DNA of 64,000 nucleotides, from assembly GCF_014643835.1 (NCBI RefSeq), contig NZ_BMKD01000001.1, forward strand, positions 1,054,001 to 1,118,000. The letters are read 5' to 3'. Within the stretch, counting starts at the first letter, position 1. Each line of letters opens with the position of its first letter. A model generated the notes under the pieces. That model saw only the letters and a list, made by a program, of their open reading frames with translations. It was not told the DNA's origin and did no database searches. The stretch comes from Mucilaginibacter rubeus. Its GTDB lineage: Bacteria; Bacteroidota; Bacteroidia; Sphingobacteriales; Sphingobacteriaceae. The translations under genes were made by a program, and so were the position numbers. This document shows positions 43,584 through 64,000 of this stretch, one piece after another.

Positions 43584-43621
43584 CATTGTTGGTTAATGAA
43601 AACCCAACTTAATTGAATATT

Positions 43622-45118: not shown

Positions 45119-45119
45119 G

Positions 45120-45142
45120 CTGGGTGACTTTTGGTCACTCAG
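45120..45142 (+). terminator. terminator-like hairpin
   Basis: CTGGGTGAC / GTCACTCAG with one mismatch, directly after the stop of the MNT-HEPN gene and followed by TTTATT. Confidence 0.65.
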
Positions 45143-45394: not shown

Positions 45395-46729
45395 ATGAAA
45401 AAAAGCAAAATTAAAGCTACTTCCGAAGAATTATATAATGAATTATATTTTTACAAAATTGCTTTTGAAAACAGTAATCAGATATTAACTAATGAAGTTT
45501 TGGAAAAGCATTTTCTAAAACCAGTAATATTAAACAAGGCGATAAAAAAGCTTCATAACGAATTCCTTAGCTTTAACGCAGGAGTAATAGGGATTGCTCT
45601 AAAGGATAAGGAAACCCTTGTTCAGAAATTTTTTATCGGGATTGAGAAAGACGCTATCTACGTCGCCTGCAATTGCGGAATGCCGTCGCAAGAACTTTGT
45701 GAACACACTTTCTACGGATTAGGGAGGTTTATAAAAGGGCATAATGGCGATTTTAAGCCCTATTATTGGCCAGGCATCGAAATCGATAATCACGGCTTGT
45801 GTAAATATTTAGACATAAAAATTTCTTGGCATGAAATTTCAATTCATCCCAAAAAAGAATTAGGTCGCTTGTTTATTACAAGTCGAGGCTTTGACGAAAT
45901 TGATCGAATTTTATTTGATGAAAAAGGCTCGCAAATTAGCATAAAGAAAAATGGGTATGAAAAATTAATTGGCTATCATTTTATATATAACGCAAACCAA
46001 GGAGAACGTGCGCATTTCCCCTTTTTACTGCCATTTATTGGAGTTGCAAACAACACTGACGATATCCTTTCTTATGAAACATATTTGATGCATGATGATA
46101 GATCAATTGGCGACATTTCTTTAACAAACGATCAAATATTACTTAATGATATCTGTCATAAAATGCAAAATTTGGCCTCATCAACAAGAGGGGATAGATT
46201 ATGCTGCTTGAAAGATAAGTTATCACAAAGTCAAATGGTTGAAATACTGGGGTTATGGCAACAAGCTATCCCATTAATTAAAAAACAGCCATACGTTAAA
46301 GCAAGTTATTCATTCGATATGAGAAGTCTCGCGGAAAAACCTGGAAAAAAAGACGCGGAGGATTTCAAAATTGATAATGGGACATTAAGTATTTCCTTTT
46401 TTCTAAAGGAACATGAAGACTTTTTTTCGTTGGAACCTATAATACATGTTTACGAGAAGGACATAACGGAGTCTTTCTGGAAATTCCCGTTTTTCATCGT
46501 TGATCCTCTTAGACCAAGCTACTACCATTTCCATTTAGTTGACAATATTCAGGATGATACTATCTTGGAATGGTTTACTTTAGGTGGAAATAAGTTGACC
46601 GTTTTAAAACAAGATTTTGAGGAATTCAATAATAAATTTCTCATCAAGATCAGAGAACACTATGTGGTCTATTATCTGCCTCTCAAATCCAGAAAAAGAA
46701 GTTTATTAAAGAACCAAGTTTTTTTATAA
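45395..46729 (+). CDS. SWIM zinc-finger protein without a helicase domain
   Basis: 444 aa. SWIM zinc finger CNCG...LCEH with ligands C92, C94, C102 and H104. The remainder has no helicase motifs and no recognised domain. In bacteria this finger usually precedes a SNF2 helicase. Here the protein ends where that helicase would start, so it is either a truncated SNF2-SWIM protein or a stand-alone partner of the SNF2 protein encoded 15 kb away. Confidence 0.65.
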   Translation: MKKSKIKATSEELYNELYFYKIAFENSNQILTNEVLEKHFLKPVILNKAIKKLHNEFLSFNAGVIGIALKDKETLVQKFFIGIEKDAIYVACNCGMPSQELCEHTFYGLGRFIKGHNGDFKPYYWPGIEIDNHGLCKYLDIKISWHEISIHPKKELGRLFITSRGFDEIDRILFDEKGSQISIKKNGYEKLIGYHFIYNANQGERAHFPFLLPFIGVANNTDDILSYETYLMHDDRSIGDISLTNDQILLNDICHKMQNLASSTRGDRLCCLKDKLSQSQMVEILGLWQQAIPLIKKQPYVKASYSFDMRSLAEKPGKKDAEDFKIDNGTLSISFFLKEHEDFFSLEPIIHVYEKDITESFWKFPFFIVDPLRPSYYHFHLVDNIQDDTILEWFTLGGNKLTVLKQDFEEFNNKFLIKIREHYVVYYLPLKSRKRSLLKNQVFL

Positions 46730-46762
46730 CCTCAAACAATGCCGCTTGGTACCGCCAGGAAT

Positions 46763-46797
46763 GAAGGCAAGCAGTTGAATTCAACTGCTTCGCCTTC
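46763..46797 (+). terminator. long-stem intrinsic terminator
   Basis: GAAGGC around the 22-bp palindrome AAGCAGTTGAA/TTCAACTGCTT, closed by GCCTTC and followed by TTAAATTT. It ends the SWIM transcript and separates it from the 248-aa gene. Confidence 0.75.
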
Positions 46798-46831
46798 TTA
46801 AATTTACCTCTAAAAGAAAATTTCTCAGGCC

Positions 46832-46882
46832 CCAGATTGCGTGGGGGGTGATTGAATAGCAGTCACCCACCCATACTGCTGG
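46832..46882 (+). repeat. hairpin before the 248-aa gene
   Basis: TGGGGGGTGA pairs with TCACCC-A-CCCA, closed by an outer CCAG/CTGG. It has no T tract. It lies 74 nt before the ATG at 46956, upstream of the -7 box, so it is more likely a DNA site or transcription barrier than a leader. Confidence 0.4.
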
Positions 46883-46942
46883 ATAAATCAACAAACTGGT
46901 ATCCAGGAAAATATTTGAATTAGTATAATTGAAAGACATCCG

Positions 46943-46950
46943 TAACTTTG
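46943..46950 (+). promoter_or_regulatory. Bacteroidetes -7 promoter box
   Basis: TAACTTTG, a perfect TAnnTTTG, 5 nt before the ATG at 46956; a TTTG 25 nt upstream could be a widely spaced -33. A leaderless message would result. Confidence 0.45.
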
Positions 46951-46955
46951 ATAAT

Positions 46956-47699
46956 ATGGCGTCATTAAAGACATATTTTATTATGTTAAAGCTACTTTTA
47001 AGCGGCTACAGTGAAACCCACCAAAAAGAGGAATTATATCTGCACGACGCACTAAGAAAGGCCGAATCTGAAGATGATTTTAAAAGTATTTGCACTGTGC
47101 TTGGTAAATCAGGCGGCCTCTTCTGTGTTCCTACGCTAATGGCTTTTGCAAAAGAGAAGAATGCTAATAAAGCTAATGCTGCTATTGATACACTTGTACA
47201 AATTCGTGAAAGGGTAATTGAACACGATAACCCAGATATGAAGGACTTTTTTTCACCGACATTTTGGCAACCACGTTGGATTGGAACCAAGGATAGTTTT
47301 ATTAGTTATGTCGCTTGTATCGCCGGGATTTTCGATAAAGAAGATCCATTTGACGGTGATAATTTAGATGAAACGGCTGAAAAGTTAATGTGCGAGATAC
47401 AGGTTGATCTTTATCCACACGAGACTTTTCGTGAGTTAAGATTGTGCTCTCCTGGCTGGGAGGCAAAAGAAGATTTTGTAAACCTATTAACCGAAATTGA
47501 AAGCGACACGCTTATGCAAAATATGCTTTTAGATCTTACAATCAAAAAAAGTCCCGAAGCTTTATATGAAGAAAATATGATTAATATGCGCTGTGATTAT
47601 CTTTTAACAAGGTTAAATTTCCATGTTGATTATCACACTCTACATTATTTGTTGAAGGTTGCTGAGCAGTTAAATCGACCAACTAAAAACACAGACTAA
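46956..47699 (+). CDS. unknown 247-aa protein
   Basis: Starts at the ATG at 46956 (a TTG at 46929 is in frame). Helical, rich in Asp/Glu, possibly a small repeat solenoid (ALRKAESEDDFKSICTVLGKSG) but without clear repeats. No named family. It lies between the SWIM gene and the convergent defence operon. Confidence 0.55.
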   Translation: MASLKTYFIMLKLLLSGYSETHQKEELYLHDALRKAESEDDFKSICTVLGKSGGLFCVPTLMAFAKEKNANKANAAIDTLVQIRERVIEHDNPDMKDFFSPTFWQPRWIGTKDSFISYVACIAGIFDKEDPFDGDNLDETAEKLMCEIQVDLYPHETFRELRLCSPGWEAKEDFVNLLTEIESDTLMQNMLLDLTIKKSPEALYEENMINMRCDYLLTRLNFHVDYHTLHYLLKVAEQLNRPTKNTD

Positions 47700-47959: not shown

Positions 47960-50032
47960 TTAAAACCAGCTACTTTTTTCCCCAACACCTGTAATTATTA
48001 TAGATTGTATGGCCCTCGAAAAAACCACATAATAAAGAGATCTTTCCTGTTGGTCATATGAATCTCGTTCTCTATCAGTCAGATTAGAGTAGTTAGCAAA
48101 TTTATAGGGTACACTTAACTCAGACATCCCTTTAACAAAAACGACTTTAAATTCATGCCCCTTCATATTATGGAAAGTCGAAACGTTTATGGCGTTGATA
48201 TTTTGTTTTGCGCTATTGAGGTCTAAATATTTAATATTTGCTGAATTAAGCGACTTCTTGAGATCGTCTAAACCACCATTCGTGCGTGAGCACAAGCTAA
48301 TTTCGCTTGGCTGTATTTCACCGCCACCTATATACACTTTCAGCTTGTCCAATATGAATTCATCTTCTTCCTCTGGCGTAACAAATGTTTGATAAAAAGG
48401 CTCATTGCCATGCATTAATGATAGATAGCCTTTTAAGTTTTCATGATTTCCATCGAAATCATCCACTTGCAAATTGGATACGACTTTCATTGCAAGATGT
48501 TTTATTTCTTCGGTTGTTCGATAATTGATTTTTAATTTACGACTTCTTCTTCCCCTTACAATGATTCCCGATCTTGCGAAATTAAGCGTCCTTTTATATA
48601 TGTTTTGATAGGGATCGCCAACCAAAAACATATCATTTTCCTTTTCTTCAACCAATGATCTCAACAAACTCAGCTCCGGGTTACTAAAGTCCTGGATCTC
48701 ATCACATATTAAATATGAATATGGTTTGGTTTTCTGTTTTCTAAAATAGTCAGCCAGCAAATTGCATAATTCTAATTTAGAATAATTTCCTGCCTTTTGT
48801 TTTTTGAATTCTTCAACTACCGCCCAAATATCGATTTTGTCTTTTTTGCCAATCCGGGAGTTTCGACCAATTCTCGAAGCAGTATTATATTCCGCTAAAG
48901 ACGATATATTTTGGGGTAAGATTATCTCATTATATTCGGAAAAGAAAAATTCTACATCAAATTGAGATGGATATTTTTCCAAAGACTGGCTCCAAATCCC
49001 TTTCTCTTGTTCAGCTGAAAAGTAACCCACTTTAGAGTTAAATATTCTGTATTCAGAATTGTTGGCTAAGTCAAAGATCAATTTGTCAATATTAATAATC
49101 TCGACCTGACTTTCTAAGAGACCTAAACCCTTTATGGTGTCCTGCAAATACCCCGTCAAACTTTTGGTGTAAGTAGTAAATAACACAGGACGATCAAAAA
49201 TTCCGGCATTGTCAATAAGGAATTTTGCGCGGTGTAAAGCACAAACAGTTTTGCCAGTACCGGCCCCACCGGTTACCTTAACCGGGCCATTAAAATTGCG
49301 ATAAGCTAAGGTACGTTGACTTGGGTGCAAAAAGATTTTCCATTTTTCAAAGCTGCCATTCAAAACTTCTTCCAATTGCGTATCGTCTGTTAGTATAAAC
49401 GCATGTTTCAAAGCATTGCTGCTTTCCATAGGATTTTCATTGGTTTTACCAGTCTCAATATCTTCAAGTATTTCTTGAAGCGGAATCCCTTCTGCTATAT
49501 AAAACAAGTATTCATATAAATCTACCGGCAGATTGTTTTTGCAATTGTTAAGATCATCAACAGACGATATCGATCTTATTAAACCTATCATCTGTTCAGG
49601 AGCGCCTATTGACAATAGATTAGCATCGGTCAGATTGTCAAAAAGTGGCGTTTCCTCCTTAACAAACGCTTCTTTAATAACTTGTTCCTGGGGTTGTTCA
49701 AAAAGCTGAAAACCCTGCGTTTCAAGGTTCCATTTGAATATTTTATTTTTCGCCCAATCCATCGCTTCGTCATGGTTATCAACCCAGAGCAGATGATACC
49801 CATTCCCCTTTTCAGGAGCCTGGACTATAGCCCTGTATTTATCAGTAACGCGAACGGTTCTTAAGCTCTGATCAGCAAACGAACTTATTTTTTCATAGTT
49901 AATTGCGGATGATGTGGGGTTTTCTCTGAACTTCTTCAAAAGATCCCTTGTTTGCTTTTGAATATGTTTTGGCAAAGAGGAAAATGAATCAAAAAATGAG
50001 TCGTGTATAAACAGTTGTATATCGTGATTCAT
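47960..50032 (-). CDS. UvrD/Rep-type SF1 helicase with RelE/ParE-like N-terminus
   Basis: 690 aa. Residues 1-95 have the RelE/ParE toxin pattern (FFDSFSSLPKHIQKQT... RTVRVTDKYRAIVQ... HLLWVDNHDEAMDWA). A 150-aa linker follows. The SF1A helicase core has Walker A GGAGTGKT near 256, DEIQDF near 441 and GDPYQNIY. Conserved RelE-type catalytic residues cannot be judged by eye. It starts 2 bp after the giant helicase stop, so it belongs to the operon. It may unwind DNA while the toxin-like domain targets RNA or acts only as a docking module. Confidence 0.8.
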   Translation of the reverse strand: MNHDIQLFIHDSFFDSFSSLPKHIQKQTRDLLKKFRENPTSSAINYEKISSFADQSLRTVRVTDKYRAIVQAPEKGNGYHLLWVDNHDEAMDWAKNKIFKWNLETQGFQLFEQPQEQVIKEAFVKEETPLFDNLTDANLLSIGAPEQMIGLIRSISSVDDLNNCKNNLPVDLYEYLFYIAEGIPLQEILEDIETGKTNENPMESSNALKHAFILTDDTQLEEVLNGSFEKWKIFLHPSQRTLAYRNFNGPVKVTGGAGTGKTVCALHRAKFLIDNAGIFDRPVLFTTYTKSLTGYLQDTIKGLGLLESQVEIINIDKLIFDLANNSEYRIFNSKVGYFSAEQEKGIWSQSLEKYPSQFDVEFFFSEYNEIILPQNISSLAEYNTASRIGRNSRIGKKDKIDIWAVVEEFKKQKAGNYSKLELCNLLADYFRKQKTKPYSYLICDEIQDFSNPELSLLRSLVEEKENDMFLVGDPYQNIYKRTLNFARSGIIVRGRRSRKLKINYRTTEEIKHLAMKVVSNLQVDDFDGNHENLKGYLSLMHGNEPFYQTFVTPEEEDEFILDKLKVYIGGGEIQPSEISLCSRTNGGLDDLKKSLNSANIKYLDLNSAKQNINAINVSTFHNMKGHEFKVVFVKGMSELSVPYKFANYSNLTDRERDSYDQQERSLYYVVFSRAIQSIIITGVGEKSSWF

Positions 50033-50034
50033 AA

Positions 50035-53000
50035 TTATAAATTGTTAATGTTGAAATTTTCAATGGTATATTCCGTAAAACCTGATTCAATAAACTTTTT
50101 CCTGGATTCTTCATCAAAAGGGAGCATGAAGAACTTTGGCAACTCAGACCCCAATGTAGCCTGAGCGACAATTATTTCATCTTCCAGCAGTTCAAAATCA
50201 TAATCAAAGTTAATAGCAATGCGTCTTTCTATTAACGCTTTAACTATTTCATGCAATTCATCTGCGAAAAGTTCCAATATCTGATTTATAGATTCTGTCG
50301 GTTCTTCTACCTTCAATTCCCTCTCTACTCCTTTGAAATCATGGAATTGCAATAAATTATACGTCTGCCAAAAAAGCTCCCAGTTTTCTTTATTATAGTC
50401 AGCATCGGGCAATTCATAAAAAATACCGGATTTTATGGCCAGCGTAACCGGATGCCCGAGGCAAATAATTTTTAATTCGTCTACGAATTTTAGATTATCG
50501 CATACTGCGAATTGATCAGGCTTAGATTGCTCAAAATTGAAATCTGCCTCCCGTCCCGATTCTAAAAAAGCATCTACCTGGTCAATTGCCAGGCATTTAT
50601 TTAAGAGTTTGCTTTGTGCTGCAAATAATGGGATAGACGACCACAGCTTAACATCATAGTTAAAAAGAGGCTGTTTAAGAAAAATACAAAACCTCGAATA
50701 ACTGTTCTGGTTCTTGATTAAGCTAAAATCAAAAGATTTTAGAAGCGGGTGTTTAGGCGCAATTCTTCCTATTGCTTCGAAATTTATTTGTCGAAAAAAG
50801 CTATCCTCTGTTTTATTAACAGCCAAATTTACAATGTCTTCCCATGAAAATACCCATTGATCATATCTGCCTGATAGGGTTATAGCATCCCGTATTTTCA
50901 AATCACCTAAAACGCGCTTATTTTCAGCTGTGGCATGAAATTTATAACCGTCTAAATAAACAACTATATCCTTTATTGCCTGAACCTGCTCAAATGTTTG
51001 TGTAACACCATTAATGGTTAATGACACGCATTTAAACAAACAATCTGGCCTTGTGGTGTATTTTACGCCGGTTAAATAATAACCTAAATTCTGTGGCCAT
51101 ATTTCGTAGCAAATCCGGTTATCCTGTTCAATTAAGGTGAGCCGGTATTTTTTTAATCCATTCTCAATCAGCTCCTCAAAATCACTATTGTGTTTGGCCT
51201 TGAAATCCCTTTGCAAAAGATCAATGAACCTTTCTTCTAATTCAGACTCCTCATTGTTGGCAATATGAGCAATATTAGTCAGGCTATTTACTTCATTCCA
51301 TTCGTTAGATTTCTCAACAATGTCTTTAAATAAATTCTCCGCTTCAGCTCTGCTTAATATTTCCCTGTCATACTGATTAGCGTAAGTGTAGATACACTTA
51401 TAACAACCATCTTTTCCCTCATCTTTGCAGGTACAATTCCTGATATGGTCGTAAGCGATATTCAGCAGCTTTGTAAATTCCTCTGTATTAAACAATCTTG
51501 ATAAATAGCCAGTACCGCCGGGAATGCTTTCATACATTACCAGGTAACTTTCCTTTCGGCCAGATTCGGTATTGAACTCATCATAGGCTCTTATATTTAC
51601 ATGGTCTGGGTGACCTTTGAAATAGTCCTTCAATCCTAATAATAGGCCCGCTTTAAAAATAGAGACCTTCTCGGCCGTCCTAAAATCCTGCACAGGAAGT
51701 AATATTTTTAAAGCTTCGGTTTGAAAACTCCTATAGATGTATAACTCGTTAAAAGTTTCATCATTTTGTCCCTGGTAGTTGATTGCTCGGTTTGCACAAT
51801 ATCCAAAATGATATGACTTTTGACGGTTATCAAGCTCACGTTGCGTAAGCGGCCTTTCTGTGGCTTTCCCACAAGTTTTACAAACTACGAAACCGACCTC
51901 CGGATTTTCTTTATCATTGATAAATAGTTTTCTGCTTCCCCAAAACCCCTCTTCCCTAATGCCAGTATTCACTTCAAAATATTCGGCAGCCGAATAAAAT
52001 TCAATACCAAAAGGTACCCGTTTTAAAACTTTAGCGCCTCTCGATGAACTTGGGTCTGTTTTTAGATGGACTGACTTAGTATAAAATTTACGTTCTCTAT
52101 CATCTGAACTGTCGTTAATTTTAGATGATTCCCTATCGTTTACTGACAGTACTCCCTTAAGCTTTACTAAAGTCTTTTTATTTGCAAGGCTCCCCCATGA
52201 GTTATGCTGGCACTTTGGACATAATAGCTGGTCCCGCCGTACATCTACATCTAATTCCAGAGCATCACAATTGCTGCAAAAGCGCCATGTTTCATAATCA
52301 TCCGCCGAAAATATTTCAAGTCCCTGCGATTCCAGCTTGTGTCCCTGGCTGTAAAAAATATTTCCGGGGGCAAGTTCTGTAATGGCACTGGATGCCGGAC
52401 GTACAATTTCACCAAAATCTTCAACATGGTATCTTACGCCTGTTGGTTCTTCAACCTTAGATATTATTTGGGCATTGATATGTACCCCTGTTTCAGGGAA
52501 AGCATAGTTTGGCAGAATACCGATATTGGTTAGGTATTCTATAGTATTTCTCTTGAAAATATTGTCAATCGCCCCCGAAATTGCTCTGTTTTCCGCCTTT
52601 AATGCTTCAGTTTCGGCACCAGTAGCCGGAAGTTTGTTGAGCTGATGCTTTACTTCTTTTCTTTTTTTATCGTAATACTCCACCTCTTTAAGTAATTGGC
52701 TTTGTATAGATTGCAATTGCTGAACCGGCTGATCGGCCAGTAAATCCATTTCAATCTGCTTAACAGCTTCTAAGGCATCCTCATTGGTATACTTTCCTTT
52801 AAAGTTGGTAATTAATTTTGCCTTGTTTTTTGAAATGAAATCAGCAATCTGGTTAAATATAAAGCGGGAATCACCCAAAGGAAGGCTTTTAATTTTCAGT
52901 ACTCTTACAAATGGTGGAATGTTATTGCTGTCATGATCTGCCGATGCCCAGCTATCAAAGCAATAGGCCATAAAATGCCTGCGTAAAATATCCCTGGCGC

Positions 53001-56000
53001 CCAAATAACACGAGGGTGTTCTGATGTCACCCGCCATCATGGCCATGGTGTCTTCAAAGTAATATTGATCATGCTCATCACGACCGGCGAGGTTTACTAT
53101 GAGTGAGGTGCCAGAGGCCCTCCCCGCGCGACCAACCCTTTGTAAATAATTTGAAGTTTCGGGTGGTATAGATGCATTAAAGGCAGTATTTAAATCACCT
53201 ATATCAATACCCATTTCAAGGGTAGAGGTAGCGACCAATACATTTGTGCTTTGGTAATTAGGTCTGTTTTTAAAATCTATTTCAAGTTTCTCCCTTTTAT
53301 CCCTGTCAATCAATCCCGTGTGGTCTTTCGCAAATATTCTTAAAGCCCGACCCCTATTATACACCATGCGGTAATAATCGAACCCGTTTTCATTTTTAGT
53401 ATATTTTCCCGGGCAACGGTGTTGTAAGCAAGCCATTCCCTCAACTAAATTGCCATTACCACTACCAACATTCAAATTATTGCCGCAAACGCTGCATTCA
53501 AATGAACTTACATCAGTTGTCAGGTATATTTGATCGGGATTTAAGCCAACGTTATTAATGCCTGCAGCAACTTTTTTGTCCAGTAATTTATTGGCCTCTA
53601 AGTATTCAAAAAGCTTTTGGTAGAAATCATTAATAAGTTCGGTTTCAGCTGATCCTACAGTATCAAAACATTTCAAAAACCAGGTGCTATACCAATTTTG
53701 CTTGCCGCCCTGCGTTTGAATAATCTCAAAAGCGGCAGTATTTGGACCGGGTGATAATGTTGCAAACTTTGGCAAACGCGAGTTCTTCCCAAAGTTTTTA
53801 ATCAGGAAGTGCTTTTTATTTGTGTTTTGGGTAATTAGCCAGTAATTGGTTTTTTCTGATCTATATTTTTTTAAATACACGTGGTCAACACCGCCTTTAA
53901 AACGTAAGCGATGTAAAAACCCCAATAGAAACTTGGCAAATGTGTCCTGATTGATGCGGCCATTAAGGGTTTCCTTTTCAATCCAATAACTCATTTGATT
54001 ATAGACATCATCAAATTGGAGAATGTCAAATTCTACGGCAGAAGCCCCTGATTTTTCGAGTGTGCGGCCAATACCCGCGCTAAATGAAAACTCAGACCAT
54101 ATTTCCCAGCTTAACCTATTACTGAACTCCTGCAAAAAGGGTTTCGAAAACGACTTGTCCTTTTGCCTATAGTCATCAATTTTTATCCGGCTTTCGCAAT
54201 CGGGAGGCAGGTATTTAAAAATGAAGGCATCTTCAGGCTTTGATTCATTAAGTAATTTTTGACGCCATAATTTCTCAAATTCAGGGTAAAGTTCAGTTAA
54301 AGTTATTGTGCCATCGTGTGCCTTTAAAACACTTTGAATAGCGTGCCGCATTCCGAAACGATAGTTCCGGCTTTCAATAAAACCAGCCTGGTGGGCAGCA
54401 TCCTGCACAGCATTGGTAAAAGCGAGCAATTTTCTGTCATGATCTGCTGCCGGATCTGTTGCCGTTGCCATCAACTGTGCAGCAATAATCGATTCTAAAG
54501 TCGGCAGACCTGTACCGATCAGTGCAAGCGTATTTCTGGAATTGCAATGCGGGCATATCTTTTCAATTCTGTCGTCAACCTGCCTTCTTACGCCTATTAT
54601 TTTAAAATAATTGTCAGCTTCCTTTTTATCTGATAATTCTAAGGTTTCGGGGTTAATATAATCCCCAATTTTATCAGTAGGGCTATAGTCATCAGCGAAA
54701 ACACTTACAACAGATTGTCCTTCTAATGAAGAAATAAAGTACACATTCTTATTTTGCCTTTCAGCCATAAAGAGGGTGCGTATCCTTGTCAAATCATTTT
54801 CTAAATAATCATTCCCTTCTTTTTTTACAGCAAGCCAGCCCGAACCGCCGCAGTCACGACAGTAATAAGGGGGCAATGATTTTATTTTTTCATTTGGGTT
54901 TAAGTCGCTCTGCCATGCAAACAAAGGGTAAGGCTGCATTTTTTTTAGGGTGCGGTGTAAACTGCGTATCCAATAACTGGTTTGAAAGAAAACAAACGGG
55001 GTATATTGATTTCCCGATTGCTCTTTTGCGTACGACAATATGCCCGTTAACGATTGCAGCAGCTTAAAACCTTCATGATAGGTTAGTGTTCCCTCCTTAA
55101 AGCACCTTGTTATCCAATAGGTTGTTGTTTCTTCTAATTCAACAACGCCTTTACTGGTTAGTTCGACCAATTGCAGCAGCCATTTATTTTTTTTGAGCTG
55201 GTTTAATAGTACTTCCGGCTCATTTGAATATCCCCATAAATTTAGCTGTCGCTCAACATACGTTTCATATTCGTCAGCTTCATAAAAATCGCATTGGTTT
55301 ATTTTGCCCAGGTCAAAGACTGGCACCTCCAATGCTTCATCGAAAAACATTTCGGGTTCTATTCTTTTCTCCTCAATAACAGCGCTGCTATCTACGTCAA
55401 TCCCAAAGATCAGGGAGAAAAACTTTACCAGCTCTTCTTTTCCTTCATCGCCGCCAGCCATTGTTGCCGACGTGCCAACAGGAACTAACTGATCATTACC
55501 AATATTTAATTTAAGCTTTAAACGCCTGATGAGGCTAGCCACATCCGATCCTTTTGCGCCGTCATAAGTATGCAATTCATCCAGTACAATAAATTTCAGG
55601 AGTGAGCTATCTGCATAATTATACTTCCATAGGTTATGATACCTGGCTATCATGAGCGAATAATCCAACATTTTAAAGTTGGTTAATATGATATCCGGAG
55701 GTGCCTGTATTAAGGTATCACGGTCTTCAATTATCCGCTGTTCTTCCATACGGGTGGGCCTGTCCTTTGCCTTGTTTCTGCCTTCACCTATAAATAGGCC
55801 CGCCCTTATTTTGTCGCGCAATACATATTCGCCTGAGGGGCTTTTATAATTGTGAATTGCTTGCGCTAAGCGCCTTGCTTGGTCAGTGGCGAGGGCATTC
55901 ATGGGGTATAATATAACAGCCTTTATACCGGGATTGCCTATATTTTTATAGCAATAATCTAACAAGGGGTATAAAAAACTTTCAGTTTTTCCAGAACCTG

Positions 56001-56316
56001 TTCCTGTTGTTAAAATTACAGGCTGGGGTTGATTATTTTGAGTTGTCAACCGTTTAAATGCCTCGTGCTGGTGCCGGTAAGGTGGAAAGTTTGGCGCAAT
56101 GGTTAATACTTCGGCAAGGTTTTTTTCTTCTTCGGGTTCAATCCTCTCAAATGGCAGCCTTATTTGTATATAAGGGCCTTTAAACATTCCATGGCGTTTG
56201 CTATATAAAAAATCCTCAAACGCCTGCTCAACTTTTTTATCGTCAAAGTTATAGGTAGCCTTCAAGTACTCAACCACTGCGTTTCTTATTTCCTCTGCCT
56301 GTAGTAGTGATAACAT
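50035..56316 (-). CDS. giant DEAH helicase with DUF1998 and C-terminal nuclease-like domain (DruE/DrmA-B-like)
   Basis: 2093 aa. SF2 helicase: Walker A TGTGSGKTES near 103-110, DELH near 247, helicase C STLEMGIDIG near 1035 and QRVGRAGRASG near 1062. Inserted cysteine pairs (CRDC near 487, CPHC near 587, CSVC near 942, CSNC and CPKC at 1344-1369) suggest zinc ribbons. DUF1998 follows with CTCKDEGKDGCYKC near 1632-1645. Residues about 1690-1820 look like a Vsr/MTES_1575-type endonuclease fold: E of SELEERF, TRPD, and VVYLDGYKFH then RDAI. Its size matches Druantia DruE; its neighbours match DISARM, where DrmA (helicase) and DrmB (DUF1998) are separate. It overlaps neither neighbour (gaps 2 and 11 bp). 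Confidence 0.88.
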   Translation of the reverse strand: MLSLLQAEEIRNAVVEYLKATYNFDDKKVEQAFEDFLYSKRHGMFKGPYIQIRLPFERIEPEEEKNLAEVLTIAPNFPPYRHQHEAFKRLTTQNNQPQPVILTTGTGSGKTESFLYPLLDYCYKNIGNPGIKAVILYPMNALATDQARRLAQAIHNYKSPSGEYVLRDKIRAGLFIGEGRNKAKDRPTRMEEQRIIEDRDTLIQAPPDIILTNFKMLDYSLMIARYHNLWKYNYADSSLLKFIVLDELHTYDGAKGSDVASLIRRLKLKLNIGNDQLVPVGTSATMAGGDEGKEELVKFFSLIFGIDVDSSAVIEEKRIEPEMFFDEALEVPVFDLGKINQCDFYEADEYETYVERQLNLWGYSNEPEVLLNQLKKNKWLLQLVELTSKGVVELEETTTYWITRCFKEGTLTYHEGFKLLQSLTGILSYAKEQSGNQYTPFVFFQTSYWIRSLHRTLKKMQPYPLFAWQSDLNPNEKIKSLPPYYCRDCGGSGWLAVKKEGNDYLENDLTRIRTLFMAERQNKNVYFISSLEGQSVVSVFADDYSPTDKIGDYINPETLELSDKKEADNYFKIIGVRRQVDDRIEKICPHCNSRNTLALIGTGLPTLESIIAAQLMATATDPAADHDRKLLAFTNAVQDAAHQAGFIESRNYRFGMRHAIQSVLKAHDGTITLTELYPEFEKLWRQKLLNESKPEDAFIFKYLPPDCESRIKIDDYRQKDKSFSKPFLQEFSNRLSWEIWSEFSFSAGIGRTLEKSGASAVEFDILQFDDVYNQMSYWIEKETLNGRINQDTFAKFLLGFLHRLRFKGGVDHVYLKKYRSEKTNYWLITQNTNKKHFLIKNFGKNSRLPKFATLSPGPNTAAFEIIQTQGGKQNWYSTWFLKCFDTVGSAETELINDFYQKLFEYLEANKLLDKKVAAGINNVGLNPDQIYLTTDVSSFECSVCGNNLNVGSGNGNLVEGMACLQHRCPGKYTKNENGFDYYRMVYNRGRALRIFAKDHTGLIDRDKREKLEIDFKNRPNYQSTNVLVATSTLEMGIDIGDLNTAFNASIPPETSNYLQRVGRAGRASGTSLIVNLAGRDEHDQYYFEDTMAMMAGDIRTPSCYLGARDILRRHFMAYCFDSWASADHDSNNIPPFVRVLKIKSLPLGDSRFIFNQIADFISKNKAKLITNFKGKYTNEDALEAVKQIEMDLLADQPVQQLQSIQSQLLKEVEYYDKKRKEVKHQLNKLPATGAETEALKAENRAISGAIDNIFKRNTIEYLTNIGILPNYAFPETGVHINAQIISKVEEPTGVRYHVEDFGEIVRPASSAITELAPGNIFYSQGHKLESQGLEIFSADDYETWRFCSNCDALELDVDVRRDQLLCPKCQHNSWGSLANKKTLVKLKGVLSVNDRESSKINDSSDDRERKFYTKSVHLKTDPSSSRGAKVLKRVPFGIEFYSAAEYFEVNTGIREEGFWGSRKLFINDKENPEVGFVVCKTCGKATERPLTQRELDNRQKSYHFGYCANRAINYQGQNDETFNELYIYRSFQTEALKILLPVQDFRTAEKVSIFKAGLLLGLKDYFKGHPDHVNIRAYDEFNTESGRKESYLVMYESIPGGTGYLSRLFNTEEFTKLLNIAYDHIRNCTCKDEGKDGCYKCIYTYANQYDREILSRAEAENLFKDIVEKSNEWNEVNSLTNIAHIANNEESELEERFIDLLQRDFKAKHNSDFEELIENGLKKYRLTLIEQDNRICYEIWPQNLGYYLTGVKYTTRPDCLFKCVSLTINGVTQTFEQVQAIKDIVVYLDGYKFHATAENKRVLGDLKIRDAITLSGRYDQWVFSWEDIVNLAVNKTEDSFFRQINFEAIGRIAPKHPLLKSFDFSLIKNQNSYSRFCIFLKQPLFNYDVKLWSSIPLFAAQSKLLNKCLAIDQVDAFLESGREADFNFEQSKPDQFAVCDNLKFVDELKIICLGHPVTLAIKSGIFYELPDADYNKENWELFWQTYNLLQFHDFKGVERELKVEEPTESINQILELFADELHEIVKALIERRIAINFDYDFELLEDEIIVAQATLGSELPKFFMLPFDEESRKKFIESGFTEYTIENFNINNL

Positions 56317-56327
56317 GTATAAACGCT

Positions 56328-59300
56328 TTAGTTGTTAGGTGTCGCGGTAACTAATACATCATTAGCAAACACGTTTTCAAAATGTGCCCAGGCGGTTTTA
56401 TATTCTTCAACCCGGTTGCATTTATCAAAAGGTGCGTAGTAAGTTATTTGTTGGCCTTGATATAACTCGCTTTTGGTAATGGTATACTCATAAATGTCTC
56501 CATCTTTAAGAGTACGCTGCATTGGGTTAACTTCGATTGTTGCTTTATCCCATTCGGCCCTATCCAAACCAACGCCCGTGAGGCCTTTGCTGCAAGTGAA
56601 AATAATATTTCCTTTTGCATCATACCAGGTATCGTCTTCATTTTGTTGCAGTACCGGGAATTGCACGTTATAAATAAGGCTCAACTCTGCAAGCGTAAGG
56701 CCTAATGCCATAGCTGTTATTACATCAATCTCTACCAAAGCCAACCGACGTTCGTACCAATTTCGGAGCGGTGAACGCCATTCCCATGCTTTAGTTAGGG
56801 CATTAAATGGTTTTAACCTTGCATCGTCCTTACTCCATTCATCTTGCCTATAAACCTCCTGCCAGTTTTCTTCCCATAGCGGCGCGTAGTACTTGTTAAG
56901 GCAGTTAAGCAATAAGGTGCGGCTAAATAGTTTCGGTTTAAACTTCGCTTCAATCCCCAAAGGAAATGCAGTGATTCTGCTATCACCTAAATTAGAAGCA
57001 CCAACTGTTTTGATAAAGAAATCTAAGATTAGAGATGAGCATAGCCCTTGTGCCTCTATCAAATCCGCGGATTTTTTTAGAGCTAATGAAATTATGCTAT
57101 TAATGTGGCTCGTTTTTGCTGGAAGTATTGAACTAGTTAATGTTCTTTCTCCCGGTTGATTGAGCATTTTTCTAAAGCCAATTTTGTAATAATCTATCCA
57201 CCGGTCTGTTCCGAATCCAGTGATAATATCGGGAAACATGAGCGGATTTTTACCAGGGACATAATTTGTTCGAGGCACAAAGGAATCTTCAATACTTAGT
57301 AGATCAATTGTTTCATAATCTGAGCGAAGTGTACAGATTTTAAGTGGCGTTTTATAAAACGGATTACTTATATAAATGTGCGGGCCACTATAAATCATTT
57401 CATGGTCCGCTAAATCTGGAAATTTAGTGGAACGCACTATAATCCCTAAATTAACATCATTTGTTTCGTGCCATCCTTCTGATATTTTCGAATCGAAGTT
57501 TTGGATAGAGCTCTTAAATTCGCTTAATTTTTCTAACACAGACACCAATGTTGATGAATGTATAGCGACCAATTTTGCGGTTTGCCATTGATTAGAATCT
57601 TCAAAAGTTAAAGCCAATATTCTCAGTTCTTTTTCAGTGAGTCGAACCACCCTATCAGCATGGGGCTTTACGTTCCAGATAAAAGAACCCGAAACCTCAT
57701 CTTTGATCTTAATACCACCCGCTAATCCATTGCCATTATGGTTAAACGACCCTTCAATGGTTGACGGGTGGCAAATATTGCTCATGGATATGAAATCTAT
57801 TTCCTTTGGTGCACCTCTATAAATATTTATACTGTAATACTGCTGATCATGTACTTCGCTGAATAATTTTAAAGCGTTTCTATGGTGGAAGTGATAAACT
57901 AATCTTTGATATAATTCTTTACGCAAAGGCTGGCCATTAGGGTCGTCATATATTCCTTCGGGGTGTACCAAGCCTAAATAGCCTTGTGGCGCAGTTAAAG
58001 AAAAGCCATCCTCTATTACACATTTATACAAATTGGTCTGCTGGCCGGCAAGTAGCGGATAGTTTTGTCGAGCATTCATAAACTGCGCTAAGCCTTCAGT
58101 CCCAATTAGCTCAATGTAGTACTCTTTCTTTTGAGCATTTGATAACAGATAGGCTTGCTGCATCTTCCGTACTTGTGGGGCAGTCGTTTTTCTTATCAGG
58201 ATTTCTGGAAATTGTTCGGCGATGATGTCCTTTTCCTCAAATAATAATTTTATCCATGGCGGATTGCCCACAATCACATCAAACCCGCCCCTATCCTTAA
58301 ACACTTCTAAAAACTCAAGTTCATGATGGAAAAATCGATGCTGCTCGCGTAGTGCAGCTATGGTTTGTATGCGGGTGTCGCTGCCAAACAGGGTCCATTG
58401 GCTTGCGGCATTTTTTTTAATGTTGGCCAAAATCTCGGGCGCGCCTGGATTTTCAGCCAAGCCGGAAAGATCAATACCTAAAATATTTTCAACCTCGTTA
58501 TACCACTCATTCCTGTTAGGGAAATCGGCGGCGTTTCTGGCGTCCCAAAACCAAAGGCTGCACCAATAGTCCATCACCATACGCAACTTATAAAATGGCG
58601 CACTTCGGGCATTTCGCCTTTCGGCGAGGCGTTCCTTTTCGTCATAGCCTTTTATCGCTATTTGTGGGGCATTTTGCCCATAAACCGCATATGCGCTGGT
58701 GGTATCTTTTATTATTTCTTTTATCTGCTTATAATGCTCTTCCAGCAGGGTATCAATTACCTTGCAAAGCTTCTCCAAACGCTTACATTCAAGGCTGGTT
58801 AGCGGTTGTTTAAATTGTTTCTTTTTCTCAGTTATCGCCTTTTTTTCAGCGTCGCTTAAGTCTTCCTTTATCAACCCAATCCCTGCCGAGGAAAGCATGT
58901 TATCATCCGGTAATAAAAAATGATAAAACTGGTTGGGTTTACGTGTTAGAACTCCCTTTTTATCCCACTTAATACGCCTAGGGGCCTTTGCCCACCAGGC
59001 TTTTGGTATAAGCGTATTGCGTAGTTTGGTAATTCCTTCTTTAGGGTACTCCGCAATAATATCCTGTTCATCGTAAACTTTTAGCCAGCAACCTACCACC
59101 GCATTGCCCACGCCTAAGCGATGCGCAAAAAATGGCGTTTCCATATTTCGGTGCATACAGTTAAGCCATAGTGAAAGCTTACCCAGTTCAACCGCGGTGG
59201 GGTTTAAATCCACACCATACACGTTATTGGCCGCTATAAAGGCTTTTACTTTTTGCAGTTCATCGTTGTAGCTACCCGGTATTATTCGCTTGCGGCCTTT

Positions 59301-61145
59301 TCTAACTGCTTCGGTTTCCTTCAATTCCAAATAAGCATCGGCCAATTGATTAATAGCCTCGTTATGAAAAGCCGCAGCGCCCATCGCCGGTTCCAGTATT
59401 TTAAGGGTTAATATTTCGTCGGCGCAATCTTCACCTGCTTCCTGACGTTCCTTCAACTTATCAATTATGCCCTTTAGCGTATATTTTACCGTTGTTTGGG
59501 TAAGCACTTCAGGCGTATAATACGAGGCTGATTTTTTCCTGTCACGGCCATTCAGGCGATAAACAAAATGACCTTTGGGTAACTGCTGATCGTATTGCGG
59601 ATTTTCGGGGTCTTTTAGTATTTCATCTTCCTTAAATTCATCTCTTCTGGTTAATGGAACAAGGAAAGTTCCTTCTTTACCATCCGGGTCGTCCGCTGCT
59701 TTTACCTCGATCAGGGTATCAGCTGCGAAGAAACCACTAAAGGCAAGCAAACTTTCGTACACACTACCCAATTGATTGATACCCAAATTGCCGTATGATA
59801 TCCGCCCTCGACTTTTAGCTTTACTTTGGTCGCTTAATGATAAGCGCTTTATAATTTGCTGTAAAACTATATTGCGAAACTGTACACCCGACAAATGTTT
59901 CAATTCGATATTATCGAATAAAGGCGAGTCCAAAGGTTTCATTTCAAACCCATTAGTGGTTTTCACGCCGCTATGGAGATAATCAAATAATTTCCACAAG
60001 CTGATGGAAAAGAAGTGCCCTTCTTTTGATGAATCTGTACCCAAGTGTACAAACTCCAAATCGCGAAGCATTTCAAGACTATAACCTTTTTGGTAAGTAG
60101 GATCTTTAACCGGTAATATTTCTAAATCTTCCCTTGCTTCTGCATAAAACAAAAACAGCAGGCGATATACCATAGTAAGGCATTCATCTTTTAATTCCTT
60201 CGCAAATTTTTCGTCGGCCATTAATTTTTCAATGGCCTCTTTATCTTCTAAGGTTTTTACATTTTTCTTCCTAAACCAAATGGCCTCATTTGCCAGGCTC
60301 TCCACTGCAAAAATTACCCCTTTTTTTAAATTCTGAGTTACACCGTAAGCCGCCTTATGCGCATCTTCATCCAGCGATTGCAGCAAACTATCAGTATTGC
60401 CTAAAAAATTAGGTTTGGCCAGCAGGGCATAAAACAAAGCTAAATAATCGCGGTTGGCGGAAACCTGCGATTCAAGGAAAAGTTCTTCCAGGTCGAACAA
60501 TAAAAAACTATCATACTTCCATTTCTCAAAATGGATCAGGAAAATTTTTGCACCCGCAAGCATGATCACATATACCGGGCGTTCGTCTTCTGGCAATAGA
60601 AACAATTCAGACAGCGCATCTTTAATTACATCGGGATTTAAGGTAATATCTCCCCATGCTTCCGGAAAAACCTTCTCCCACTCGTCTTTTACCCAGGTTT
60701 GGTCGTAAATACCTTCGGGTGCCTTTTCACCTTCATGGACGATGGCTTTCATTTCCATGATAAACAAATAAGGTTTTCCGACTTTGGTATAATTGTAGCG
60801 TACAGGTATTACCTGGGTATCATCAAGGTAAACCGGCTGATTGTATTCAGGAGTACCGTTTATATAGCCAAGCGCCTGTAATACTTCTCTATGAAAATCG
60901 TGCGTGCGTTTTACTTTATCTTTTACACGTTGTATGTTGAATAAATCATTTTTAAAGCGATAGTATTTTTCGCGAAGAGGAGAAATAAGAGCGTTTATTT
61001 CGGATAGATGATTACTCGTATCCTTTCCATCACTATCTTTTTTCTGCGTAACGTAGCCTGCTTTATCAAACACTTTTTTGGGGAAATTATCCGTAAAAAA
61101 GTGTTGTGAGTAGTAATCGCCAATATTTTCTATAAACCTGATCAT
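56328..61145 (-). CDS. large adenine-specific DNA methyltransferase (DrmMI/Eco57I-like)
   Basis: 1605 aa. AdoMet motif ILEPAMGAAAF near 578-588, catalytic NPPW near 958, and the YYTPEVLTQ motif X region near 540. The N-terminal 250 residues resemble a PD-(D/E)XK-type fold: LDDTQVIPV then IMEMKAI near 128-134, an ExK site, so a type IIG-like nuclease activity is possible. In class 1 DISARM, DrmMI methylates host DNA to mark self. It starts 15 bp after the SNF2 gene and ends 11 bp before the giant helicase. Size and N-terminal layout fit DrmMI better than PglX. Confidence 0.85.
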   Translation of the reverse strand: MIRFIENIGDYYSQHFFTDNFPKKVFDKAGYVTQKKDSDGKDTSNHLSEINALISPLREKYYRFKNDLFNIQRVKDKVKRTHDFHREVLQALGYINGTPEYNQPVYLDDTQVIPVRYNYTKVGKPYLFIMEMKAIVHEGEKAPEGIYDQTWVKDEWEKVFPEAWGDITLNPDVIKDALSELFLLPEDERPVYVIMLAGAKIFLIHFEKWKYDSFLLFDLEELFLESQVSANRDYLALFYALLAKPNFLGNTDSLLQSLDEDAHKAAYGVTQNLKKGVIFAVESLANEAIWFRKKNVKTLEDKEAIEKLMADEKFAKELKDECLTMVYRLLFLFYAEAREDLEILPVKDPTYQKGYSLEMLRDLEFVHLGTDSSKEGHFFSISLWKLFDYLHSGVKTTNGFEMKPLDSPLFDNIELKHLSGVQFRNIVLQQIIKRLSLSDQSKAKSRGRISYGNLGINQLGSVYESLLAFSGFFAADTLIEVKAADDPDGKEGTFLVPLTRRDEFKEDEILKDPENPQYDQQLPKGHFVYRLNGRDRKKSASYYTPEVLTQTTVKYTLKGIIDKLKERQEAGEDCADEILTLKILEPAMGAAAFHNEAINQLADAYLELKETEAVRKGRKRIIPGSYNDELQKVKAFIAANNVYGVDLNPTAVELGKLSLWLNCMHRNMETPFFAHRLGVGNAVVGCWLKVYDEQDIIAEYPKEGITKLRNTLIPKAWWAKAPRRIKWDKKGVLTRKPNQFYHFLLPDDNMLSSAGIGLIKEDLSDAEKKAITEKKKQFKQPLTSLECKRLEKLCKVIDTLLEEHYKQIKEIIKDTTSAYAVYGQNAPQIAIKGYDEKERLAERRNARSAPFYKLRMVMDYWCSLWFWDARNAADFPNRNEWYNEVENILGIDLSGLAENPGAPEILANIKKNAASQWTLFGSDTRIQTIAALREQHRFFHHELEFLEVFKDRGGFDVIVGNPPWIKLLFEEKDIIAEQFPEILIRKTTAPQVRKMQQAYLLSNAQKKEYYIELIGTEGLAQFMNARQNYPLLAGQQTNLYKCVIEDGFSLTAPQGYLGLVHPEGIYDDPNGQPLRKELYQRLVYHFHHRNALKLFSEVHDQQYYSINIYRGAPKEIDFISMSNICHPSTIEGSFNHNGNGLAGGIKIKDEVSGSFIWNVKPHADRVVRLTEKELRILALTFEDSNQWQTAKLVAIHSSTLVSVLEKLSEFKSSIQNFDSKISEGWHETNDVNLGIIVRSTKFPDLADHEMIYSGPHIYISNPFYKTPLKICTLRSDYETIDLLSIEDSFVPRTNYVPGKNPLMFPDIITGFGTDRWIDYYKIGFRKMLNQPGERTLTSSILPAKTSHINSIISLALKKSADLIEAQGLCSSLILDFFIKTVGASNLGDSRITAFPLGIEAKFKPKLFSRTLLLNCLNKYYAPLWEENWQEVYRQDEWSKDDARLKPFNALTKAWEWRSPLRNWYERRLALVEIDVITAMALGLTLAELSLIYNVQFPVLQQNEDDTWYDAKGNIIFTCSKGLTGVGLDRAEWDKATIEVNPMQRTLKDGDIYEYTITKSELYQGQQITYYAPFDKCNRVEEYKTAWAHFENVFANDVLVTATPNN

Positions 61146-61160
61146 TCTCTTTTTAAATCG

Positions 61161-64000
61161 TTACGCGTTATAAAACACTGCCAGCAAGCGCAAATAGGGG
61201 TCTTCTTCTAACTGAAAAAATGTTTTGTAAAACTCGTCAGTCTCCTTATGCACATAATCTATATCTTTTTTTCGCTTATCCTTATGCGAGCGACCTGCCC
61301 CGGCGCTGTCCTCCCCGAATTGTAAATCTAACTGACGTTCGGAGTTTTGCAGCCACTTGTTCAACTTTCTTTCGTATTCGGTTAGCTTGTCTTCGATGTC
61401 ATCAACCAAATTTCCCTGTAACTGCTGCGTATACAAACGCTTTGCAGATGTGACCGCATCAGGTAACATCGCTTGCAAAATGTCTAAATGCGCTTGTTCA
61501 ATTTCCAGGGTTGGTAAATCGTCAAACAATCGGTAATGGCTAACGAAATCGTCAAAGCTATCCAGGTTGCCTACATCCCTGCCAATAAAGGACCGGCCAA
61601 TCACAAATAATTTTGACAAAATTGCCTGCCCCTTGCCATTGGAGCTTATTCCCTGGAAAATAAACCATGCCGATTTATCAGGCAAGGGACTGCGCATCCG
61701 GGCCACAGGAGCATTCCCTTTATCAATGCGGGCCAATATTTTATACTGCAACCATCGGGCTAAAGGATGCATATCATAAAGTAATTGGTGCGTCGGCCAG
61801 CCTTCTTTTTTTCGCGCCCTCTCTATCGATTTTTCAACCGCTTCTTTATCACAGGTAAGTTTAAATGTGTCCCTTTTATCGGGGAAAGCTTCATCCGGAA
61901 TATCATACAGTACCCCTTGGGATTCGCCACGTTTGCCACAAAGTTCCTCAGTTTGAACAAACTCAATCAATTGATCCATCGGGTCGACTGATATTTTATC
62001 GCGCAGCTTTTCATCTACTGATTTTAATTCATCAATGACGGTGGAATAATACTGGAAATCAGTAGAATAAAAAGAACTGTGCGGTTTTTCAAAAATATTT
62101 TCTTTTGATAATTCAGTTTCTTCTGATACATCATAGACCGCATTCCAATCAATTTCGTCGTCCTTCTGTTTTTTGTCGAGGATGGAAACATCTCCTTTTA
62201 CAAAAGCCCTGGTTACCAGCTTTTCCTCTTTATTAGTATCATAAAGCATCCAGAGGCTTGCAGCGTCACCCAGCGTTTTATATACTTCTTCTTCTTTTTC
62301 CTTTAATTTATCCAGTATCCTAAAATCGTCCTTAATTGTTGGGTTATCCGATTTTGAAATAAGATAATAGATGTAGGGCGTATTTTTTTGCCCGAACCGA
62401 TCTATCCTGCCATTGCGTTGTTCCAGTGTTATAATAGACCATGGAATATCATAATTAAACATTTTGTGGCAGTGGTAATGCAAGTTAACCCCCTGGCTTC
62501 CCGCATCAGAGGTGAGGAACAAACGGATAGGGCTTTCTTCCTTTGAAAACTTCTCAATGATGTCCTGCTGCTCGGTATCTGTTAAACTGCCATTAAACTG
62601 AACTATTGCTGCTTCATCAATGTTAAATGCGGCTTTTAGCTTTTCTTCCAGGTAGTCAAGGGTTTTTCTTCTTTCGGTAAAAATGATGATCCGGTCGTCC
62701 GTTTTCCTGCCTTTCCAACCCGACGCCTTTAATTGAGTAATAAGTTCAGCTAACTTTCCGTCTGCGTTTATTTTTAGGATGTTGTCCAGTTGAGCCTGTA
62801 AGCCAAGTAAGAAACTTTTGGTTATCTCTTCATCAATTTGTTTTTCCAGCCGGTTGCTTATCGTTTCAAGACATGCAGAAGGAGAAGACATGTACGATTT
62901 GAATAAGCCTATAGTAAAAAGCAGTGAACCATCGCTCATATTACCGTTTGCTTTATCAAAAGCTTCACCTTTAGCGCGTTGTATTTTTTCAATCACACTT
63001 TCCTCTTCGGGAAATAATGAAGCATGAAAGCTGGTTGTTACCCGGTCACGAAAGGAATCGCCAACCTCGCTTTCAACATCCTTTTTAAATCTTCGTACAT
63101 AAAGCGGTGTAATATCTTCTGCCGTAAATTCTCCGTTATAGGGAATAGCGGTTGGATCGAGTAATGTGATCAGATTGGCAAAGTTTTTCTTTTTACCGTT
63201 ATGTGGTGTGGCAGAGGTAAGCACCAGCGCTTCACATCTTTGAGATAAAAACTTGGCGAGTTTCCCGCGGTCGCTGCCTTCGTTTGCAACTGTGTGACAT
63301 TCATCTATTACGATAATGTCCCATTTGATCTTTTCAAGATAATGTCGGAATTTACCATTGTTTTTCAGGGTATCGACGGATACAATTACCTTATCATAAT
63401 AATCAAATGGATTTTTATTCGAAGGGATAATGGTAGTAATTCTTGCCACACCCTGGCTATCCAAGCGGACCAACGGAATCGAAAACCGGGACCATACTTC
63501 CTGCTGAAATTGGGAAAGTATAGATTTGGGAGTAACAACCAAAATTCGTTGACCCTTCCCACGGCGAATCATTTCCGTAAGGAAAATCCCTACCTCAATG
63601 GTTTTACCTAACCCGACAGCATCAGCGATCAGGATTCGTGGTTTGGGCAGCGATAGGGCTTTTATAGTTGGGATAAATTGATAATTGCTTGGCCGGATTG
63701 CGGCTTTGTTTGCTATCTCAATCCCTTCAGAAAAGAAAGACGAGTTACGCAAAACAGTTTCTATAAAAAGTTTTGATTTGCGATATCCATTGGAATTATC
63801 AGCAATGAGCTTAGTTGATTCTGGCGTAATAACATCAAAATCCTCCAAACTGAGATCAAACGTAAAACGCATCCCTTTCACCAATTCGGAAATACCTTCA
63901 ACTTCAATTATATCTTTTTCTACATGAGTTACCAAAAAGTCTTCATCCCGTAAAGAAAGACGTATTCCGGCTGCTATGTTGTGCGTTTTTGTTTCTAACA
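61161..64000 (-). CDS. SNF2-family helicase (DrmD-like), 5' end outside window
   Basis: The frame stays open to the window edge and no in-frame ATG lies between 63935 and 64000; a TTG at 63935 exists, but the upstream codons (GIRLSLRDEDFLVTHV) look like real protein. At least 946 aa are visible. Walker A ADAVGLGKTIE lies at about 63596-63628, the Walker B DECH at about 63295-63312, and the helicase C-terminal QRNGRIDRFGQK at about 62385-62420. Such SNF2 proteins (DrmD) start class 1 DISARM operons. It precedes the methylase by 15 bp. Confidence 0.85.
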   Translation of the reverse strand, partial: LETKTHNIAAGIRLSLRDEDFLVTHVEKDIIEVEGISELVKGMRFTFDLSLEDFDVITPESTKLIADNSNGYRKSKLFIETVLRNSSFFSEGIEIANKAAIRPSNYQFIPTIKALSLPKPRILIADAVGLGKTIEVGIFLTEMIRRGKGQRILVVTPKSILSQFQQEVWSRFSIPLVRLDSQGVARITTIIPSNKNPFDYYDKVIVSVDTLKNNGKFRHYLEKIKWDIIVIDECHTVANEGSDRGKLAKFLSQRCEALVLTSATPHNGKKKNFANLITLLDPTAIPYNGEFTAEDITPLYVRRFKKDVESEVGDSFRDRVTTSFHASLFPEEESVIEKIQRAKGEAFDKANGNMSDGSLLFTIGLFKSYMSSPSACLETISNRLEKQIDEEITKSFLLGLQAQLDNILKINADGKLAELITQLKASGWKGRKTDDRIIIFTERRKTLDYLEEKLKAAFNIDEAAIVQFNGSLTDTEQQDIIEKFSKEESPIRLFLTSDAGSQGVNLHYHCHKMFNYDIPWSIITLEQRNGRIDRFGQKNTPYIYYLISKSDNPTIKDDFRILDKLKEKEEEVYKTLGDAASLWMLYDTNKEEKLVTRAFVKGDVSILDKKQKDDEIDWNAVYDVSEETELSKENIFEKPHSSFYSTDFQYYSTVIDELKSVDEKLRDKISVDPMDQLIEFVQTEELCGKRGESQGVLYDIPDEAFPDKRDTFKLTCDKEAVEKSIERARKKEGWPTHQLLYDMHPLARWLQYKILARIDKGNAPVARMRSPLPDKSAWFIFQGISSNGKGQAILSKLFVIGRSFIGRDVGNLDSFDDFVSHYRLFDDLPTLEIEQAHLDILQAMLPDAVTSAKRLYTQQLQGNLVDDIEDKLTEYERKLNKWLQNSERQLDLQFGEDSAGAGRSHKDKRKKDIDYVHKETDEFYKTFFQLEEDPYLRLLAVFYNA

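Follow-up and report, generated by a model that had tools for sequence, protein, structure and literature searches.

The DNA analysed here (the window) is a stretch of 64,000 nucleotides, which is closed by four minus-strand open reading frames at 47960–64000. They are separated by gaps of 15, 11 and 2 bp, and their common strand, spacing and sizes agree with a preliminary description of the locus. The frames and two sub-features of interest are listed in the direction of transcription:

61161–63998, minus strand: armA, SNF2/RapA (BrxHII-like) helicase; 945 aa visible, 5' end open at the window end
56328–61145, minus strand: armB, PglX/YeeA-like adenine-type methyltransferase with an NPPW motif; 1605 aa
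50035–56316, minus strand: armC, YprA-family DEAH helicase with DUF1998/MZB; 2093 aa
50812–51294, minus strand: nuclease-like C-terminal stretch of ArmC, residues 1675–1835; pattern E / D / DG..H / D...R
47960–50032, minus strand: armD, GajB-like UvrD helicase with a RelE-like N-terminal head; 690 aa
49703–50032, minus strand: RelE/ParE-like head of ArmD, residues 1–110; E47, R61, R67, H87

The Pfam domains SNF2-rel_dom and Helicase_C were found in ArmA, an Eco57I-type methylase domain in ArmB, where the Asn of NPPW is residue 961, and DEAD, Helicase_C and MZB (DUF1998) domains in ArmC, the latter (PF09369) at residues 1557–1642 with 44.5 bits at a cut-off of 24.2. The SNF2 helicase, the NPPW methylase and the 2093-aa DUF1998 helicase noticed at the outset were thereby confirmed. 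armA is truncated only close to its 5' end, since residue 4 of E. coli ArmA already has its counterpart in residue 6 of the open frame. Judging from this alignment, the gene probably lacks a few residues at most, and the start codon is predicted to coincide with the window end or to lie directly beyond it.

Elsewhere in the window, positions 11992–35000 belong to a conjugative element and encode a D12 adenine methylase, an ArdC antirestriction protein, a coupling protein, TraM, a TraG P-loop ATPase and a MobA-type relaxase. The location of the operon on a conjugative element, as initially proposed, is upheld by the TraG ATPase, the coupling protein, TraM and the relaxase.

Relationship to ARMADA, DISARM and Druantia

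The operon is almost certainly an ARMADA Type II antiphage system (armA-armB-armC-armD) located on a Bacteroidota-type conjugative element. ARMADA Type II was introduced by Bell et al. (bioRxiv preprint, September 2025, PMC12458937) for E. coli NCTC 12900 and ATCC 8739. According to this preprint, it consists of a SNF2/RapA helicase, an NPPW methyltransferase, a YprA/DUF1998 helicase of ~2,000 aa and a RelE-UvrD helicase in strict order; the one-strand order armA-armB-armC-armD of the window is the same. The E. coli system is reported to protect against 13 of 80 phages and to act directly and non-abortively, with no growth arrest (PMC12458937). Deletion of any of the four genes led to loss of defence (PMC12458937, section 6), and of eight motif mutants, six lost defence and two showed a partial loss (PMC12458937). 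ARMADA is also named in a 2026 preprint on Druantia III (PMC13192584), which cites PMC12458937, and is mentioned in a 2026 review (PMC12904381).

As E. coli references, a plasmid copy (L001) and a chromosomal copy (L072) were used, both from strains other than those tested in PMC12458937. In BLASTP comparisons, ArmA is 34% identical to its E. coli counterpart over residues 6–945, ArmB 35% over residues 5–1589, ArmC 29% over residues 1–1838, and ArmD 34% over residues 6–687, head included. The eight residues mutated in the preprint carry the expected letters in the plasmid copy (ArmA K136 and D236, ArmB G605 and N971, ArmC K110 and D234, ArmD K266 and D454), and the equivalents of all eight are kept in the window proteins. 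For example, K132 and D232 of the window ArmA (open-frame numbering) align with K136 and D236, which represent Walker A and B, and G589 and N961 of the window ArmB align with G605 and N971, which belong to GxG and NPPW.

The window operon and E. coli ARMADA II thus have in common the four genes, their order, similar protein sizes (with respect to the plasmid copy), the eight tested residues and the RelE-like head of ArmD. In contrast, the proteins are only 29–35% identical, the nuclease stretch of the window ArmC contains short insertions, and the window copy lies on a conjugative element, whereas prophage-like islands are described for ARMADA II in PMC12458937. The window operon is a diverged copy of an already described system and not a new one, and its four-gene order persists although the proteins share only about 30% identity. 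An antiphage system that received its name recently is now placed on a Bacteroidota-type conjugative element; neither "bacteroid" nor "conjugat" appears as a string in the main text of PMC12458937, and Bacteroidota copies may be contained in its supplements. The conjugative element, YoeB-like residues in ArmD and changeable neighbours of armC are what is added here.

The type was assigned as follows. In ARMADA Type I, the YprA gene usually comes first, and passages of PMC12458937 on this type mention no RelE-UvrD gene. The ArmC tree was built from 18 sequences, to which E. coli DruE3 was added as an outgroup; references for ARMADA Type I, BRIGADE and TALON are absent from it, and the assignment to Type II therefore rests on gene order and on the fourth gene. 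In this tree, the window ArmC groups with three other Bacteroidota sequences (L006, L007 and L008; support 1.0), followed by that of genome G143 (support 1.0).

PADLOC-DB 2.0.0 (2023) labels the four proteins as pieces of DrmD, type IIG, DruE and GajB, which is the mixture that had been recognized by eye in the preliminary description. That such loci come out with DISARM, Druantia, type IIG and Gabija labels side by side should be taken as a warning. In the wording of PMC12458937, ARMADA is the missing link between DISARM and Druantia. The original view of a hybrid that shares parts of both remains valid for the SNF2 helicase, the methylase and the DruE-like helicase, but the operon is not unnamed, since it is ARMADA Type II: all four genes find their place in a system that already has a name, in matching architecture and order, which in substance is the outcome stated at the outset as refuting a new hybrid.

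It is very improbable that the operon is instead a class 1 DISARM system with a drmA-drmB fusion and a substitute for drmC. The SNF2 helicase and the methylase of class 1 DISARM are homologous to ArmA and ArmB, and the PADLOC scores of 307 bits (ArmA, DrmD) and 213.7 bits (ArmB, DrmMI) reflect this. However, the NCBIfam models yielded 331.4 bits for DrmD at a curated cut-off of 610 and 19.4 bits for DrmA at a cut-off of 999, and because both scores are below the curated cut-offs, the operon is not DISARM. The big helicase also speaks against class 1 DISARM: ArmC aligns with E. coli ArmC across residues 1–1838, and its PADLOC scores are 331.7 bits for DruE and 63.6 bits for DrmA models. The comparison of the big helicase with both model sets, suggested early on, thus favours DruE. 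Class 1 DISARM further has a split DrmA/DrmB and the PLD nuclease DrmC, unlike the window operon, and a Pfam search found no PLD domain in any of the four proteins; the fourth position is taken by the RelE-UvrD protein, as originally stated. DISARM class 1 was consequently rejected for an operon with one fused gene in place of drmA/drmB and no PLD drmC among the four genes that lie within the window.

A Druantia variant, defined by the DruE-sized helicase, has an equally small chance of being the correct reading. DruE, like ArmC, is a DUF1998 helicase of the YprA family with a length of about 2,000 aa, and DruE models are the best PADLOC matches of the window ArmC with the above-mentioned 331.7 bits. 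A true DruE3, that of E. coli LR-28, scores 2178 bits, whereas E. coli ArmC reaches 347.4 bits with the best DruE model; the score of the window protein is therefore that of an ArmC. Direct comparison gave 738 bits for the window ArmC with the ArmC of LR-28 and 119 bits with DruE3 of the same strain, corresponding to identities of 28% (E. coli ArmC) and 18% (DruE3) in aligned columns. The partner genes of Druantia differ as well, and none of the four window proteins matched E. coli DruH at E ≤ 1e-3. Druantia was rejected, as DruE is not the nearest relative of the big helicase. In LR-28, a Zorya II system (as annotated), Druantia III and an ARMADA operon lie side by side; PADLOC supported the Druantia III labels (DruE3 2178 bits, DruH3 2535.7 bits), and this E. 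coli neighbourhood is also reported in PMC12458937.

Least probable of all is a type IIG or type I-like restriction system that gained accessory helicases piecemeal and forms no co-adapted unit: the PADLOC model REase_MTase_IIG (PDLC03614) matches ArmB over its full length with 2172 bits, and some relatives have toxin-antitoxin or Schlafen genes either between armB and armC or immediately upstream of armC, but the four genes remain together in four phyla, and any of the single-gene deletions mentioned above abolishes defence in E. coli.

Distribution and gene order

In a tblastn search with the window ArmC, 209 of 72,556 plasmid records matched; in 30 of them, a single place accounts for 80% or more of the query. 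Five of these 30 loci were examined, and all five (from E. coli, Nostoc, Microvirga, Pseudanabaena and Streptomyces) have the order A-B-C-D; they span the three phyla Pseudomonadota, Cyanobacteriota and Actinomycetota. The Nostoc copy carries an extra gene of 185 aa with a weak MoxR match between armB and armC. Of 5,426 complete E. coli genomes, 513 contain 80% or more of the plasmid operon at near identity. In the phage collection, ArmB had matches in 4 of 50,697 records, and in each of these the coverage of the protein did not exceed 16%.

A contig scan yielded four Bacteroidota loci. All four genes are present in L007 (Marinilabiliaceae, genome G001). L006 contains armC and armD, and L008 contains armC and an armD cut by the contig end; other genes lie directly upstream in both, and no match to armA or armB was found on these two contigs. 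L009 begins inside armC and has an armD.

The phylum of G001 was then represented by a sample of 395 genomes, in which armC was detected at E ≤ 1e-40 in 10. Seven of them have A-B-C-D in order (G001, G143, G285, G247, G271, G393, G208), with two inserted genes between B and C in G143. G216 contains C-D, the contig ending just upstream of armC. The remaining two depart from the order that is called strict in PMC12458937: G279 has A-B-C, but armD was not matched at E ≤ 1e-3 in the roughly 12 kb that follow, and G345 has C-D with no A-B in the 13 kb examined upstream. The question, raised early on, of whether the order recurs in other Bacteroidetes can thus be answered positively for seven of the ten armC genomes, but not for these two.

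The genes next to armC vary. The two insertions in G143 (L045, 9914–11608) are DUF6088/AbiEi and AbiEii. Upstream of armC lie HipA and DUF6088/AbiEi in L006 (3768–5603), and HipA and a Schlafen AlbA_2 protein in L008 (1127–4570). It may be that the junction of armB and armC serves as a slot for insertions. In G345 (L070, 328–13421, minus strand), a pPIWI-RE module is followed at short distances by armC-armD, all genes sharing one strand. The module encodes a REase of 376 aa, a 1042-aa protein without a Pfam match and a pPIWI protein of 821 aa; the latter was not found at E ≤ 1e-20 in the other 243 of the 244 genomes of the same class. In E. coli Res13-Lact-PEA06-10 (L071, 13525–15777), an incomplete DUF1998 pseudogene (as annotated) lies directly upstream of a full-length armA-B-C-D, near tRNA-Phe.

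A search of the 395 genomes with ArmD gave matches in 245 at E ≤ 1e-3, mostly to the helicase part alone. Thirteen matches span the head and most of the helicase, with E values of 3.4e-70 or better; nine of these are in armC genomes, and one is in G131 (L046), where it belongs to an array of the order C-A-B-D. For the ArmD proteins of G296, G113 and G023, no match to armA, armB or armC was found in the stretch examined, which measures only 6.3 kb in G023. The array of G131 (4203–18441) encodes a distant ArmC of 1737 aa whose best PADLOC match is DruE3 with 302.6 bits. It looks like the ARMADA Type I order with a terminal RelE-UvrD gene.

Candidate nuclease sites in ArmC and ArmD and a proposed mechanism

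Fourteen Cys residues of ArmC, mostly arranged in CxxC pairs, are kept in all 18 ArmC sequences. In the C-terminal stretch, the same holds for E1694, Q1742, D1758, D1789, G1790, H1794, D1805 and R1809. DruE3, in contrast, differs or is gapped at six of these eight columns and keeps the two Asp residues 1758 and 1789. The C-termini of ArmC are described in PMC12458937 as a Vsr-type nuclease that is predicted to be active, and the candidate active-site residues kept here fit this prediction. Family, PDB-sequence and fold searches with the stretch gave no meaningful match. Structure prediction for the C-terminus was poor (mean pLDDT 47.6 for 5 sequences), and Foldseek with this low-confidence model found no match at E ≤ 0.001.

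ArmD had been described as a UvrD-like helicase with a RelE/ParE-like head. The helicase is well supported by the Pfam domains UvrD-helicase (74.2 bits) and UvrD_C and by the alignment with E. coli ArmD; the head, however, matched the Pfam family ParE_like with 19.5 bits in one search and 23.4 bits in another, both under the cut-off of 24.4, and PDB searches with it gave no meaningful match. ParE_like matches seven of eight ArmD heads weakly, with E values up to 1. Prediction of the ArmD structure was poor (mean pLDDT 43.0 for 4 sequences). GajB models head the PADLOC list for ArmD with 85.1 bits; the motor resembles GajB of Gabija, but no GajA is named by PADLOC among the four proteins.

Four residues of the head are highly conserved. 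Among 17 ArmD proteins encoded beside armC, E47, R61 and H87 each occur in 16 and R67 in all 17; the sole exception is the Streptomyces protein (L005) with K, K, R and R at the four positions. In E. coli ArmD, the residues equivalent to E47 and H87 are E48 and H88. Four further RelE-UvrD heads lie outside this count. That of the C-A-B-D array keeps all four residues, whereas in L054–L056, with no armA-C nearby, the Glu is replaced by His and the other three residues are kept. In an alignment of nine rows (A5), the invariant columns P39, E47, R61, R67 and H87 of the head correspond to P38, E46, R59, R65 and H83 of YoeB. The active-site Glu/Arg/His set of YoeB (E46, R65, H83), of which R65 is presumably catalytic, is present in 16 of the 17 heads beside armC. 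E46 and H83 are catalytic in YoeB and missing from RelE (PMC2791442, PMC2807027). The active site of the head therefore looks YoeB-like rather than RelE-like, with the difference that it is fused to a helicase. Several points count against this reading: alignment programs favour identities, the window head is 17% identical to E. coli YoeB, the ParE_like score is under its cut-off, and profile comparison of the ArmD head with YoeB was weak (probability 7.6%), so that the argument is based on the aligned residues.

Gene order, homology and catalytic residues are conserved in the window operon. From the published E. coli system and the residues kept here, we infer a most likely mechanism, including the sequence of its steps and the part played by methylation. 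The window copy would be functional, and ArmB, as an adenine methyltransferase, would mark or sample DNA. The two SF2 motors ArmA and ArmC would load onto unmarked invading DNA, or onto invading DNA with exposed single-stranded regions. ArmC would then reel in the DNA and cut it with its putative PD-(D/E)xK-like C-terminal nuclease. The UvrD motor of ArmD would unwind the DNA, and its RelE/YoeB-like head could be an RNase that works only on engagement. The NPPW mutant of the E. coli system loses defence (PMC12458937), which implies that the fold or the activity of the methyltransferase is needed for defence and not only for self-protection. The non-abortive action (PMC12458937) argues against a head that is a plain suicide toxin. 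Passages of PMC12458937 on ArmD mutants list Walker-motif changes and none in the RelE-like head.

A more speculative extension, which we regard as possible but rather doubtful, is that the head is an active YoeB-type RNase (E47, R67, H87), that both RNA and DNA are attacked, and that armC-armD is a portable effector pair for other recognition modules. If so, G345 would exemplify a portable pair, as its armC-armD follows the pPIWI-RE module, and the stretch examined contains no match to armA-armB.

Genes flanking the operon

Next to armD, a block of four plus-strand genes at 42649–47699 is convergent with the operon. Two of its products had been singled out from the beginning:

43613–45118, plus strand: HEPN protein (PF05168); 501 aa
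45395–46729, plus strand: SWIM-like protein with a CxCx7CxH motif; 444 aa

The HEPN neighbour was confirmed by its Pfam match. For the SWIM neighbour, the motif is present, but the protein matched no Pfam family. The block also encodes a 231-aa protein whose N-terminus resembles, by eye, that of the HEPN protein, and a 256-aa protein. PADLOC had no match for any of the four neighbours, and comparison with 97 loci by tblastn gave no match to them at E ≤ 1e-3; nothing therefore ties them to the operon. At the other end of the window, positions 273–5919 encode an SRAP protein, a DNA polymerase III alpha-type protein (1069 aa) and an IMS/ImuB-like protein, a trio that looks like a mutasome cassette.
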